DNA of 64,000 nt, taken from contig NZ_JAULBL010000002.1 in the NCBI RefSeq assembly GCF_030512175.1, positions 2,106,149 through 2,170,148 on the forward strand, given 5' to 3'. The notes under the pieces are model-generated. The model was not told the origin of the DNA, did no database searches, and saw only the letters and a list, made by a program, of their open reading frames with translations. This stretch comes from Paeniglutamicibacter sulfureus. Its GTDB lineage: Bacteria > Actinomycetota > Actinomycetes > Actinomycetales > Micrococcaceae. Shown here piece by piece: positions 55,429 to 60,679 of this stretch; position 1 is the stretch's first letter, and each line of letters begins with the position of its first letter. The translations under genes were made by a program, and so were the position numbers.

Positions 55429-56121
55429 TCAGGGATCCATCCGTTCGCCGCTGCGGGGACGCTTCATTTCAGGCCCGTCTTCCGTCGCACTACGGTCACC
55501 TTCGGAAAGTGATTCGTTTCCGTTCCGCTCCACGTCGTTCGTTTGCGGTCCATCGAGGTACGCGCCATGCTCCCCGGAAAGGCCGTAGGATGCCCCTGCT
55601 TGTTCGGACGCCGATGCGTCCACTGGATGCTCGGTAACCACGTACTTCCGGATTCGGGGACGTCCGGACGTGGGGCCGATGGTGTGCACATGTTCTTCGG
55701 CGCCCTGCGGGGTGTCTTGGTTCAGGCCTACGGGTTCGAGGTTGTCCTGGTCTCTTGGGGTCTCTGGTGTTTCGGGTTCAGTGACTCCACGGTTCGCGCC
55801 CAGACCGGCCTGCGAGTAGTAGTCGTAGAGGCGATCCTCGTCCTCGGGACTCAGATGCCCCATGGGATCGACGTTGGGCGCGTCCTTCACGAATTGCTTG
55901 GTGAACCTGACGTAGAGCTGTCCATTGGAGATTTCCGCATCATCCAGCGGCACAAAGTTTTCAGACGAACCGAACAGACCGGTTTTCACGGTAGCGAAGT
56001 GTGGGAGGTCGGTTCCATCGTCAAGATAAATCTGACCGAGGGTACCGATCTTTTCTCCTTCGGAGCCAAACACGTTGGCTTTGGTTTCCAGCAGGGGCTT
56101 GAGGTCTTCGTTGTTCAGCAT
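55429..56121 (-). CDS. PRC-barrel protein with truncated DUF2382-like tail
   Basis: The 230-residue protein starts with a PRC-barrel domain (about 1-80): FGSEGEKIGTLGQIYLDDGT, FATVKTGLFGSSENFVPL and GQLYVRFTKQFVKDAPNVDP, then GHLSPEDEDRLYDYY. Full-length relatives carry a large DUF2382 domain after GRPRLRKYVVTE. Here GRPRIRKYVVTEH appears, but the rest of DUF2382 is replaced by 60 acidic residues. The PRC barrel is a stress-linked fold of unclear role. GGAAAGGA lies before the ATG. Confidence 0.85.
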   Translation of the reverse strand: MLNNEDLKPLLETKANVFGSEGEKIGTLGQIYLDDGTDLPHFATVKTGLFGSSENFVPLDDAEISNGQLYVRFTKQFVKDAPNVDPMGHLSPEDEDRLYDYYSQAGLGANRGVTEPETPETPRDQDNLEPVGLNQDTPQGAEEHVHTIGPTSGRPRIRKYVVTEHPVDASASEQAGASYGLSGEHGAYLDGPQTNDVERNGNESLSEGDRSATEDGPEMKRPRSGERMDP

Positions 56122-56542: not shown

Positions 56543-56878
56543 CTATCCGCCGGTGTCCGGGTCCATCACCGAGTAGTAGCCATCCAGCAGCGATTTCTCC
56601 GCGTCATCGAGCACGGAAGCCGGGTCGACCTTTGGCGCGTGCCTGATGACATCCTTGGAGAACCGAACTTGCAGGTGGCCGTCAGTGATCACCGCACCCC
56701 TGAGGGAGACGAGGAGCTCCTCCGCTCCGAACAGGCCGAGACGAACAGTCACGAAGTCCGCGTCCCCGGTGCGCACGTCCATGAAAATGTTCCCGAGGGT
56801 CCCGATCTTTTCCCTCGCCGGACCATAGACAGTGCTCTTGGCATTCTTCAATGCGTTCAGGTAGCCGTGGCCCAGCAT
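56543..56878 (-). CDS. Short PRC-barrel domain protein
   Basis: The 111-residue protein is essentially one PRC-barrel: YGPAREKIGTLGNIFMDVRT, FVTVRLGLFGAEELLVSLRG, GHLQVRFSKDVIRHAPKVDP, and a conserved tail LDGYYSVMDPDTGG. It resembles the PRC domain of the neighbouring 230-residue gene and could be its diverged duplicate. AGGAAGG lies before the ATG. Function unknown; stress role by family context. Confidence 0.85.
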   Translation of the reverse strand: MLGHGYLNALKNAKSTVYGPAREKIGTLGNIFMDVRTGDADFVTVRLGLFGAEELLVSLRGAVITDGHLQVRFSKDVIRHAPKVDPASVLDDAEKSLLDGYYSVMDPDTGG

Positions 56879-57071
56879 GTCTGTGTCCTTCCTGGATTTT
56901 CCACCCGTTCCCACCATCCGTACCACGCCGCTGCGCGAACACGGATGCCCAGGAGGGGCAAGCCGACCTGGGCATCCGGAGTGACGGGTTATCCACTGCA
57001 AGCAAAGCACCGAGCACCCATGCATTCAAGGGCAACGGGAGGTAACAGGCTCGAGTGGGCAGGGATGAGAT

Positions 57072-58583
57072 TCAGGAGGCGATAAGCTTCAACTCCCGGC
57101 GACCTACCCTCTGACCGGTGATCCAATCATTCCAGTCAATTCTCAACGTGTAGTTTCCTGCCGCAGGCGGATGCAGAAGCATGTCGTATCTTTCCGCAGC
57201 ACCCATGGTAAGGGTATGGGTGAACAAACGAGCCCTGGAATCCGGGTGCATGCTGGTGGGGATTGCCGGTTGCCCGGGGGCCGAAGTATGCCGGAAGGGC
57301 CGGCCATCGTGGGCAATGAGCTCGGCGATGCGCGCTGGCGTTCCGTCTTCGTGGAGGAACGTGATCCTGTTGGGGAGGTAGTTCCCGTCGCAGAAGCGCA
57401 TCAGGCTTGGCGCCTTCCCGTTTCCCTTCACATTGATCGGCAGCTGGGTCGGTGCCCACACTTCTTCTTCCCGTTCCTTGCGCTGGGCCAAAAGACCGCC
57501 GGTGATGTAGAAGTGGGTGGGTTCAAAACGGTTCAGCCCGACATCTTCGCCCGAAAGGCCAGCAGCATGTCCCATCTCGTGCCACCGTGGATCGATCGAG
57601 AACGGCATGATCAGCGACTCGGTGGCGATGTCGTATTCGGGTCCGTCGGCAAAGGCGCGCCGGTTTCCCGGGGAAACCGGGAATTCGGGCAGCACGATGG
57701 GATCGATGACCAGCGGGCCCAGCAGCCCCATCTGGGCGTGTAGCGGGGTGTTGACGTGGCAATGGTAAAAATAGGTGCCTGCCGCGCCGTAGTTCGGGTC
57801 GTGTGCACGCCCCGGTTCGGGCTGCCACTGATAGGTGTATGAGTCGTCGATTTCGAACGAGGTGTGTCCCACGCCGTCGTTTCGGGGGTCGGGCTCCATG
57901 CCATGCCAGTGGATGGTGTGTGGCCCCATGCTGGGTTCCACCGTGGCATGGAAGATGTTTTTTTCCATGGGTCGCAAGGTTGGGCCAGGGAAACCGCGCC
58001 CCGAGTCGCTCCTGTGGAAGACCCACATCTCGAATTCCGCACCGTCGGGAAAACGCAAGTCGCGGCTCGACAGGTCCATGTTGACTTCCAAATGGGGAGT
58101 CTGGCGAAAAAGCGTCTCCGGATTGTCCTGCTGCATCTGGTGCGATGCGAAATCGGCTTGGGAGTCGTAATCCCTTTCTTCGCCATCGTCATCGGATGGT
58201 GTGGCGCTCGTGGGCCGTGGCGACGGCGCCGTCGAGCTGGGCGATGTCGTCGCAGACTTGCTGGTGGAGGTTGGCCCCGTGGAGCTGCGTGTTGGCGTCG
58301 GGGTGGAGGCCTTGGTCGGCGTCGGTTTTGGTGTTGCGGATTTGGTCGGCGTTGGTTTTGGCGTTACCGATTTGGTCGGCGTTGGCTTTGGCGTCGCGGA
58401 CTTGGTCGGCTTCGGCTTTGGAGTGCTTTTTCGCGTCGACTTGGGTGTCGGCGTCGGCGTGGGCTTGGGTGACTTTGTGGCTCGTGGCTTGCGTGAAGAC
58501 CCCTTCTTGTCGTCGTCGTCCCGGCGGGAATCGCGGACCTTACCCGCAGCTGCGCTAATGGCATCCCAAAATGTTGTTCTCAT
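57072..58583 (-). CDS. Multicopper-oxidase-like protein 1, with Pro/Thr/Lys repeat leader and N-domain copper motifs
   Basis: A 503-residue protein. It starts with a charged region and about four copies of a 10-residue unit KPTPTKSATP (near 57-96), then two cupredoxin-like domains. The first has H222-TI-H225-W-H227-G and YFYHCHVNTPLHAQMG (H274, C275, H276, H282, M285), which are copper ligands. The second ends with GAAERYDMLLH like a laccase middle domain. There is no third domain with HxxHxH/HCH. It has no signal peptide of its own. The ribosome site GGAGG lies across the stop of the gene upstream, so translation is coupled to it. Confidence 0.82.
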   Translation of the reverse strand: MRTTFWDAISAAAGKVRDSRRDDDDKKGSSRKPRATKSPKPTPTPTPKSTRKSTPKPKPTKSATPKPTPTKSVTPKPTPTKSATPKPTPTKASTPTPTRSSTGPTSTSKSATTSPSSTAPSPRPTSATPSDDDGEERDYDSQADFASHQMQQDNPETLFRQTPHLEVNMDLSSRDLRFPDGAEFEMWVFHRSDSGRGFPGPTLRPMEKNIFHATVEPSMGPHTIHWHGMEPDPRNDGVGHTSFEIDDSYTYQWQPEPGRAHDPNYGAAGTYFYHCHVNTPLHAQMGLLGPLVIDPIVLPEFPVSPGNRRAFADGPEYDIATESLIMPFSIDPRWHEMGHAAGLSGEDVGLNRFEPTHFYITGGLLAQRKEREEEVWAPTQLPINVKGNGKAPSLMRFCDGNYLPNRITFLHEDGTPARIAELIAHDGRPFRHTSAPGQPAIPTSMHPDSRARLFTHTLTMGAAERYDMLLHPPAAGNYTLRIDWNDWITGQRVGRRELKLIAS

Positions 58584-58587
58584 GGTC

Positions 58588-60033
58588 CTAGCCTCCGATC
58601 ACCGGTGATTTAAGCTCCCAGTGGGCAACCAGCCCACCGGGGTACATGCCGCCGGCCGCAGTCTGCGACATCTCGGCATGGCAGTGCATGGGATATTTCC
58701 AGTCTTCGGTCCGGGCATACCAGACCTGGTCTGTGGCGTCTGGTGGTCGCTTCATGGGGATGATGCAGTCTTTCCGATCCATGGGTTCGAGCTGGATCAC
58801 GTCTTCCCACTGTTGCAGCACCACGTGTCCGTCCTCATCCACGTGGCCGAATTCACGCGGCCATTCGACGTTGTTGCGGCGCACCGTCCACAGATGGTTG
58901 CCGTGGAAGTGGATTTGGTGGAACGCTATTCCGGCATTGACCATCCTGACCACCTGCCCGCCGCGGATGGTGCCCAGAGTCAGGTCTTCCCCGAAATCGC
59001 GTACATCGACTTGTCGCGGATAGCCGGAGATCAGCGACTCCTCGTGGGCCAGTCGATTGATATCCCGGTTGGGTGAATGGCCCAAGGCCTCATATCCGCT
59101 GCGATCGTTGAGCAGGAAGTAGCGGGGTACGGCGGGGGTTGCCACTGGGTCAACGGTACCGCCGGCTGCCTCGATGTTGGCCCACTTGGTGTCAATGGCA
59201 TGAGTGACCCACAGCCATTGCCTTTCAAAGCCCATCTGGTTGGGCGCGACCCGCCAGGCGTCCTCGGGGTCCACCACGACAATGGATCCGAAGAGCCCGA
59301 GCGCACGCTGGACCGGCGCATTCGTTGGATCGTAATAGAGGTAGGTGCCGGCGTATGGTGCGTCGAAGTCCAACCGCGCTTCCCCGCCTGGAGGTATCGG
59401 TCCCGTGGTGATGTCGCTGCGGCCGTGGGCACCCTGGGCAACGGTGAACTGGTGCGTGCCGGCAAGGCGGTTGAAAATGCGCAACCGCACCTTGGAACCG
59501 GTCTCGACGATGATGGTGCGTTGCGGGAAATAGCTGGCCCAGTGGTTTCTCCGGATAAAGAACTGGCCCGGGTTCGCGGGGTCCGGTCCGGCAGGTGTCG
59601 GCGTCCCGTTGGGAGGAAGCGCCGCGTTCAATGGATAGGTCCGTGATTCCACCACCTGTCCGGCACGGGTGAAGATCTTCGGAACGATGCGCAGTGACGG
59701 ATTGGCGTCCCGAAGGGCCGTTGGCTGGTCGCCGAATCCACGCTGGTAGACCAGGGAATCATCGACCATCCTTGTGTAGCCCTCGTTGATGTAGAGGTCC
59801 AGTACCCCTGGCAGCGGGGTGACGGCCAGGGGAACCGCGGCACGGGCCCTGCGCGGTGGGGCCGCTGTGGCCGGTCGGGCCACTGCCGCCATGGCTGCGG
59901 CAGTTCCCAGGGCCGCTGCGGCACCGAGCTTCAATACACTGGACCGATCGAGACCGGGATCATCCGGGTGGGAATCGGTTGTGGACGCGGGTTCTGTGCC
60001 GTTGGTCTTTGTGGGCACGCTATCGCTAGACAT
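58588..60033 (-). CDS. Multicopper-oxidase-like protein 2, with C-domain copper motifs
   Basis: A 481-residue protein with a hydrophobic leader (SVLKLGAAAALGTAAAMAA) lacking a twin-Arg. In the first cupredoxin domain the copper site has been lost: TYLYYDPTNAPVQRALG stands where the partner has YHCHVNTPLHAQMG. The C-terminal domain keeps FHQIHFHGNH (H372, H375, H377) and YPMHCHAEMSQTAAGGM (H450, C451, H452), the trinuclear and type-1 site regions; the usual His five residues after Cys is Ser. Together with protein 1 the full set of copper motifs is present. Start overlaps the Tat protein stop by 8 bases. Confidence 0.85.
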   Translation of the reverse strand: MSSDSVPTKTNGTEPASTTDSHPDDPGLDRSSVLKLGAAAALGTAAAMAAVARPATAAPPRRARAAVPLAVTPLPGVLDLYINEGYTRMVDDSLVYQRGFGDQPTALRDANPSLRIVPKIFTRAGQVVESRTYPLNAALPPNGTPTPAGPDPANPGQFFIRRNHWASYFPQRTIIVETGSKVRLRIFNRLAGTHQFTVAQGAHGRSDITTGPIPPGGEARLDFDAPYAGTYLYYDPTNAPVQRALGLFGSIVVVDPEDAWRVAPNQMGFERQWLWVTHAIDTKWANIEAAGGTVDPVATPAVPRYFLLNDRSGYEALGHSPNRDINRLAHEESLISGYPRQVDVRDFGEDLTLGTIRGGQVVRMVNAGIAFHQIHFHGNHLWTVRRNNVEWPREFGHVDEDGHVVLQQWEDVIQLEPMDRKDCIIPMKRPPDATDQVWYARTEDWKYPMHCHAEMSQTAAGGMYPGGLVAHWELKSPVIGG

Positions 60034-60679
60034 GTGCTTCCTCCAGGAATCCGGGACGCCAGTTCACGGCCGGCAAGGGTAGTTCTACGGGGTTTCCGCC
60101 AGGATTTGCGATGTCATCGAATAGGGCTGTGAACGCCGTGGCATCGGATGGAACCAGGAAACTGATATTGGCCCGAACCTGTGACCCCGGGGCCATCAAA
60201 CCGGGGGTGAGGTCGTTCCAACGGTTGACGACGAGCCACGGTTGGCTGTTGCCTTGGATGCGCAGCAGCCCCGGCGAGAACATTTGGTCCTCGTCACTTT
60301 CATTGAAGACCTCGAGCTGGAGAAGCAAATGGTCCCCGAATGTCATGTTGACCGGTTGCCGGGTTCCGTCGACTGTCGACTGGTGCCCGGAGTGGCCGCC
60401 TCCGGTGGCGGCGCCGGATGCCAGTCTTGCTTGGCGCTCGGCCCGAGATATCCGCGCCTGTCCGAAGCTGGTTTGTACGGTGGTGGTGCCCAACGGTCCG
60501 GCGGCGGTGAATGCGGCTGCCAATGCAGCGATGCCGCCCGCGCCCAGGACGAGTGAGGCTCCAATGGTGATGCCGAAAGAGCGTCGCGAAAGCAGTGGTC
60601 TAGCGGATTCCGGTGTCACGGGTCGCGACCCGATGTTGTGATGGCGCGGAGCAGCGCGATTTCCCCAAGTTTCAAGCAT
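60026..60679 (-). CDS. Tat-exported protein, first gene of the copper-oxidase operon
   Basis: This 217-residue protein has a Tat signal: SRRSFGITIGASLVLGAGGI with the twin Arg at 32-33, then a hydrophobic core. The mature part has a short His-containing GGGHSGHQST stretch and a beta-strand-rich domain (LLLQLEVFNESDEDQMFSPG; ANISFLVPSDATAF) that may be an immunoglobulin-like or cupredoxin-like fold. I cannot name a family. It is the only protein of the three with a clear export signal, so it may carry the two oxidase subunits across the membrane. GGAGG lies 11 bases before the chosen ATG. Confidence 0.7.
   Translation of the reverse strand: MLETWGNRAAPRHHNIGSRPVTPESARPLLSRRSFGITIGASLVLGAGGIAALAAAFTAAGPLGTTTVQTSFGQARISRAERQARLASGAATGGGHSGHQSTVDGTRQPVNMTFGDHLLLQLEVFNESDEDQMFSPGLLRIQGNSQPWLVVNRWNDLTPGLMAPGSQVRANISFLVPSDATAFTALFDDIANPGGNPVELPLPAVNWRPGFLEEAHV

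Follow-up and report, generated by a model that had tools for sequence, protein, structure and literature searches.

Two-domain multicopper oxidases are trimers in which, according to excerpts of two published accounts, neighbouring subunits jointly build the trinuclear centre, one contributing its domain 1 and the other its domain 2, an arrangement that would also be expected of the pair of proteins considered here, P2 and P1; in enzymes of type C the type-1 copper site is located in the N-terminal domain (PMC13151041, PMC3192119). The solved type C structures 3g5w and 2zwn are homotrimers that, like P1 and P2, have two cupredoxin domains per chain, and their domain-1 type-1 site has the pattern HTIHWHG...YHCHVN...H..M in common with P1. 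P2 and P1 differ from these enzymes in being two gene products that split the ligands equally, each having them in only one of its domains, and whereas a type C trimer has three copper centres, a P2/P1 pair is predicted to have one. To our knowledge, there is no heteromeric member of the type C two-domain oxidases.

Several other multicopper oxidases (MCOs) resemble P2/P1 in part. In Bacillus MnxG, the C and D motifs come before A and B along the coding order, as they do from P2 to P1 (excerpt of PMC3618234), and the Bacillus Mnx complex requires several gene products, as is proposed for P2/P1 (excerpt of PMC5622069). By its description, however, MnxG is a single chain of some 1,200 residues that has the small accessory proteins MnxE/F. 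Fungal POXA3-type laccase-like heterodimers also have two different subunits, but these are an oxidase and a small protein that aids its stability and activity, and the excerpt of PMC10741624 describes no sharing of a copper centre between them. Ceruloplasmin-type oxidases have six domains in one chain, whereas P2/P1 has four domains in one or two chains. A proposed origin of the six-domain enzymes is the triplication of two-domain proteins, and in one account MCO evolution proceeded from two-domain proteins to multi-domain chains (excerpt of PMC3600357). On this proposed path, duplicated subunits that divide the ligands between them are an expected in-between stage. In the small part of the literature that we searched, no title or opening of an abstract described a two-gene or four-domain multicopper oxidase, which is no proof of absence. 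The excerpts of PMC8533519 and PMC8218464 contain nothing on a P1/P2 pair, and the "four-domain" protein in that of PMC10654088 is a molybdenum enzyme.

Organization of the P3-P2-P1 Locus

The window is the whole 64,000-nucleotide stretch of Paeniglutamicibacter sulfureus DNA that was analyzed. P2 (58588..60033, 481 aa) and P1 (57072..58583, 503 aa) are two-domain oxidase subunits, and their coordinates agreed with those of the original prediction. As both open reading frames are on the minus strand, P2, which had been numbered protein 2, is transcribed before P1. A third minus-strand open reading frame, P3 (60026..60715), encodes 229 aa from a TTG start, with an alternative ATG start possible at 60679, so that the order along transcription is P3, P2, P1. 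The start of P2 overlaps the end of P3 by 8 nt and P1 starts 4 nt past the P2 stop codon.

Both window proteins match the Pfam family PF07732 (Cu-oxidase_3) above its cut-off, and at E 0.1 the family matched 15 of 15 and 14 of 14 relatives in two sets. Five more Cu-oxidase_3 matches were observed in the genome of the window, elsewhere on contig C9.

Division of the Copper Ligands between P1 and P2

Domain 1 of P1 has ligands of the A/B type together with a complete type-1 site, and its nearest solved structures are 3g5w and 2zwn. In its two domains and N-terminal type-1 site P1 resembles type C, as judged from its motifs and these matches. Copper assignments by analogy with the type C enzymes (all features minus strand) place the type-1 ligand H222 and the trinuclear-centre ligands H225 and H227 in HTIHWHG (57900..57920), and the trinuclear-centre ligands H274 and H276, together with the type-1 ligands C275, H282 and M285, in HCHVNTPLHAQM (57729..57764). 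Domain 2 of P1 is without copper ligands; in a P2-family profile alignment, the position of its HxxHxH motif is taken by LPNRITFLHEDG (57342..57377), from which the ligands are gone. P1 has its own start and a long N-terminal extension (58176..58502) of low complexity that is rich in Lys, Pro, Thr and Ser, and the length of this extension differs among relatives.

P2 has the opposite arrangement on the same strand. Its domain 2 carries C/D-type ligands, which by the same kind of analogy are the trinuclear-centre H375 and H377, plus H372 and H380, in HQIHFHGNH (58894..58920), and H450 and H452 in HCHAEMS (58666..58686), where C451 and E454 are also invariant. Domain 1 of P2 is without copper ligands: in alignments to P1 and to nitrite reductases, YYDPTNAPVQRALG (59296..59337) stands in the place of the domain-1 HCH...H..M motif with the ligands gone. 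This domain is nearest to copper nitrite reductases, in which an Asp of P2 falls opposite the type-1 Cys, and two-domain oxidases appear lower in its match list.

Comparison of the two families by profile-profile alignment (probability 97, E 9.8e-11) covered 232 columns and both cupredoxin domains, and P1 and P2 are therefore taken to be paralogues of one two-domain protein. In that alignment, YYDPTNAPV of P2 faces YHCHVNTPL of P1, HQIHFHGNH of P2 faces a stretch of P1 that holds a single His, and the counterparts of P1 HTIHWHG and YHCHVNTPLHAQM are gone from P2. The complementary loss of motifs that had been proposed for the pair is thus real, and every motif on which the proposal relied is present in P1 and P2.

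The ligands are also highly conserved. In 57 distinct P2 segments there was no variation at H372, H375, H377, H380, H450, C451, H452 or E454, and in 55 distinct P1 segments there was none at H274, C275, H276 or H282. H222, H225 and H227 of P1 are present in 54 of the 55 segments, the remaining P1 being truncated there, and the axial M285 is replaced by Leu in one segment and kept in the other 54. The segments were taken from the fetched loci, including plasmid pTC1, FW305-BF8 and Indioceanicola, and represent some but not all of the 61 P2 and 59 P1 rows described below; the pair in genome G464, which is outside the segment set, has the same ligand motifs. Such invariance of the His and Cys ligands across both proteins indicates that the ligand pattern is not due to chance.

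Each window protein has four trinuclear-type His within its chain, and neither has all eight. The eight trinuclear His with the type-1 His, Cys and His are motif-complete only for P2 and P1 jointly, or within each intact fusion of the two. As judged by motif, the P1 and P2 ligands together are one full multicopper oxidase set, whose assembly into a centre is predicted.

A Predicted Copper Centre Shared by Two Subunits

We consider it very probable that P1 and P2 are paralogous two-domain MCO subunits that have undergone complementary ligand loss and would be functional only jointly, with their contact, copper content, activity and stoichiometry all inferred. A shared P2/P1 centre is to be expected because, in the homotrimeric two-domain oxidases, domain 1 of one subunit works with domain 2 of its neighbour. 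The reference assumed in the original prediction, a three-domain laccase, is better replaced by these homotrimeric (type C) enzymes. Its central idea, two subunits with one copper centre, is strongly supported by single-chain fusions, by the occurrence of both proteins in the same genomes and by the invariance of the ligands, the contact itself being predicted. Its placement of the type-1 site in P1 is likewise supported, by analogy, as H222, C275, H282 and M285 are all there.

In the proposed mechanism, the second domain of P2 and the first domain of P1 would pack like adjacent subunits of a homotrimeric two-domain oxidase and form one trinuclear centre, to which each protein would supply four His. 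In P1 domain 1, the type-1 copper, bound as in type C enzymes, would take electrons from the substrate and pass them via the HCH motif of P1 to the trinuclear centre, which would reduce O2 to water. The ligand-free outer domains of P1 and P2 would serve as scaffold. AlphaFold models of a natural fusion (locus L031), made with 13 alignment rows, had a mean pLDDT of 46.6 for the whole protein and 37.5 for its two copper domains, values that are too low for ligand geometry.

Besides the solo genes and the gaps in the export model described below, a Cys that it does not explain counts against this explanation. This P2 Cys is kept in 57 of 57 segments without a type-1 His; the residue five positions after it, which had been noted as Ser in the window, is Ser in 56 of the 57 and Thr in one. 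The Cys may be the mark of a second, altered mononuclear copper site.

Gene Neighborhood and Possible Substrate

Among the top 40 neighbour clusters, with antisense frames of the pair excluded, P3 was present in 32 of 43 loci and every other family in 10 or fewer. Of the 49 fetched loci, three have an NRAMP gene near P2 and four a metal P-type ATPase, to which L119 adds one short and weak ATPase match; some of the 49 loci overlap or are the same copy. Assigning a substrate from the neighbours was rejected on these counts, with P3 the sole family in more than 10 of the 43 loci and NRAMP in only three of the 49. A type-1 site with an axial Met and a trinuclear centre predict, from the motifs, the reduction of O2 to water with a one-electron donor.

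That donor could be a metal. P2/P1 may be an Mnx-like manganese (or copper) oxidase in place of an oxidase of organic compounds, a reading that competes on the substrate and not on the shared centre and that we regard as possible but rather doubtful. It draws on the C,D-before-A,B motif order and the need for accessory subunits that P2/P1 has in common with the descriptions of Bacillus MnxG, and on the few NRAMP and P-type ATPase genes near P2. However, the MnxG likeness is one of motif order taken from a paper and not of compared sequences, 46 of the 49 loci (some overlapping or the same copy) are without such an NRAMP gene, and no neighbour family other than P3 exceeds 10 of the 43 loci.

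Distribution and Co-occurrence of P1 and P2

Our Micrococcaceae sample comprised 395 genomes, which were searched reciprocally at thresholds of E 1e-20 for P2 and E 1e-30 for P1. P2 was matched in 39 of the genomes and P1 in 39, and the 39 were identical, although in one of them (G400) the P2 match is a fragment of 73 residues only. Because these searches scored only a handful of top first-look candidates in each genome, diverged copies may be missed. Neither genomes nor loci are independent, with near relatives counted apart and some loci being the same copy (L031 and L123; L032 and L141).

The 61 P2 matches fall into three arrangements. In 24 of them P2 and P1 share an open frame, which in two cases (G136 and G146) is frameshifted within P1. 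In 31 rows P1 is the next gene on the same strand, which amounts to 30 pairs, as one P2 is in two pieces. For the remaining six, four long and two partial, the 3 kb downstream contain no P1. From the P1 side, five of 59 rows were without a P2 partner: two long copies, one at a contig edge and two pieces of frameshifted fusions. Every genome in which a long solo copy occurs (four P2 and two P1, within the 39 genomes) has a pair as well, and three of the four long solo P2 genes are beside a metal P-type ATPase.

Outside this family the pair was rarely observed. A class-wide sample gave P2 matches in three of 394 genomes, of which the one outside Micrococcaceae, G464 from a different actinobacterial family, has separate genes, and a phylum-wide sample gave P1 matches in two of 396 genomes, both Micrococcaceae. 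The six loci from a genome-contig scan with P2 were in Arthrobacter or Paeniglutamicibacter, and no P1 was found in the viral contigs searched. The plasmid search revealed three adjacent separate-gene P2/P1 pairs in the alphaproteobacterium Indioceanicola profundi, two of them in a stretch without listed genes. It also revealed, on plasmid pTC1 of Paenarthrobacter aurescens, P3 followed by P2 with P1 not adjacent, as far as the plasmid itself is concerned.

The expectation that the two genes always co-occur was therefore borne out at the level of genomes, by the same 39 of 395, but not for every copy, given the few solo P2 and P1 genes and the P2 of pTC1. Those exceptions, and the fact that P1 alone holds a complete type-1 site, would fit a reading in which the two proteins work independently: P1 would be a blue copper (type-1) protein or homo-oligomer, P2 a partner that is non-catalytic or stores copper, and their adjacency only regulatory. 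We think this improbable: the trinuclear-type His are invariant in both chains, neither of which could build the centre alone, P2 and P1 form a single chain in 24 of the 61 P2 rows, and the reciprocal searches converged on one set of genomes.

P3 and Proposed Export of the Complex

The N-terminal region of P3 has a Tat signal, LSRRSFGITIGASLVLGAGGIAALAAAF (60509..60592, minus strand), with a twin-arginine pattern, by which P3 would be a Tat substrate. The twin arginine is present in 41 of 42 distinct P3 frames by sequence pattern and reading by eye, the frame of L145 showing none; the script counted 40, as it cut the motif that is present in L096. Beyond this, P3 matches DUF4352 below the curated cut-off and had no match in the PDB at E 1. 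Among L109-L142, all 13 loci with a separate pair have P3 immediately upstream and on the same strand, as do 11 of the 16 fusion loci. Fusion locus L125 has it on the opposite strand. P3 was searched for and not found in fusion loci L122, L126, L130 and L135, in the three Indioceanicola loci or in solo-P2 loci L129, L131 and L132.

P2 of the window has a degenerate Tat-like signal, LDRSSVLKLGAAAALGTAAAMAAVARPATAA (59860..59952, minus strand), with one Arg. Among 34 P2 rows, 25 from Micrococcaceae have a single Arg (23 by pattern, with L010 and L011 added by eye) and the three from Indioceanicola have RR. The other six are two fusion-like rows (L034, L130), three with the start cut (L095, L103, L106) and L118, which is without a signal. 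The highest 15-residue hydrophobic mean was 1.25 in P1 N-termini, up to 0.77 in the fused proteins and 1.2 to 2.2 in P2 rows showing a signal. In the N-terminal parts examined, P1 had no strongly hydrophobic stretch and no signal peptide was seen, and the fused proteins had no signal of their own.

The twin arginine of P3, the single Arg of most Micrococcaceae P2 and the signal-less P1 suggest that the P2/P1 complex leaves the cell pre-assembled. The signal of P3 would probably direct export of the complex in its folded state, with P2 and P1 hitch-hiking on P3. This model does not cover every case, because of the signal-less fusions, the fusion loci without P3 and the signal-less paired P2 of L118.

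Separate, Fused and Decayed Forms

Whether the whole system is an obligate heteromeric MCO that is exported pre-assembled on P3 through the Tat pathway and that represents, with its four-domain fusions, a living intermediate between homotrimeric two-domain and fused multi-domain oxidases is, in our estimation, an even call. Separate, fused and decayed versions occur together in one bacterial family, and because they coexist there, subunit specialization, gene fusion and multi-subunit Tat export become directly testable. The pair also carries a warning for annotation, as P1 or P2 taken singly resembles a dead or partial oxidase.

To compare the forms, a quick tree was made of 58 P2 sequences, for which some labels were set by hand and the outgroup branch is very long. 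The labels fused, separate and solo needed six changes on this tree. The label fused needed four, at least three of which are forced by starred branches. Fusions are found in more than one group, and the separate pairs form a large group. The tree leaves the direction, fusion or fission, unsettled because of the very long outgroup branch; the separate pairs of Indioceanicola and G464 favour the inference that separate genes are older than fused ones.

That the window pair is a decaying remnant of a once single-chain oxidase is very improbable and was rejected: decay does occur in some relatives, but both the outgroup Indioceanicola and G464 have the separate form, separate pairs make up a large tree group and retain all of their ligands, and P1 starts on its own and carries a long extension. 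The decayed relatives include G001, of the same genus, which has kept P3 and in which P1 is reduced to a 64-residue match to its tail. Frameshifted copies of the fusion were observed in L030 (the G136 copy, judging by frame length), L034 and G146, and the plasmid search gave a frameshifted fusion in FW305-BF8.

Conserved Residues of P2 and P1

The two proteins of the putative multicopper oxidase pair, P2 and P1, each carried invariant residues. In P2, Cys451, the cysteine of the lost type-1 site, and the nearby Glu454 (window 58666–58686) were present in all 57 aligned segments, despite the absence of the type-1 histidine, and these two residues possibly mark a second, altered copper site. In the alignment of 55 P1 segments, the Trp, two His, Gly and Asp residues of DPRWHEMGHAAGLSGED (window 57543–57593), which lies between the two domains of P1, were invariant; to our knowledge, these residues fall outside the known oxidase motifs. 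A P1 copy with no adjacent P2 (L134:4522–5691) has leucine rather than methionine at the axial position of its type-1 site. In other oxidases, such an axial leucine is associated with a higher potential.

Probable Reduced Copies and Remnants

A P2 at L130:7313–8830 clustered among the fused P2–P1 proteins in the P2 tree, yet its reading frame stops after the P2 part, and it is probably a fusion that has lost its P1 half. In addition to its solo P2, the Paenarthrobacter aurescens plasmid pTC1 contains short pieces (L033:393–1103) matching P2 (100 residues) and P1 (32 residues), and these are apparently the remains of another copy. In a genome of the same genus as the window (G001, L146:5086–6012), the small twin-arginine-signal protein P3 was retained, but all that came directly after it was a stretch of 64 residues matching the C-terminal end of P1; no P2 match was found in this region.

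Neighboring Genes

In three loci (L129, L131 and L132), the solo P2 copy was adjoined by a metal P-type ATPase gene, and the ATPases of these loci are almost the same (98–99% protein identity); L129 additionally contains DUF305-like and NRAMP genes. Just downstream of P1 in the window are two minus-strand ORFs (55429–56121 and 56543–57025), whose small products resemble each other and look like PRC-barrel proteins. Relatives of these small proteins were found close to the P2/P1 pair in L027, L028, L109 and L110, and also next to the solo P1 of L134.
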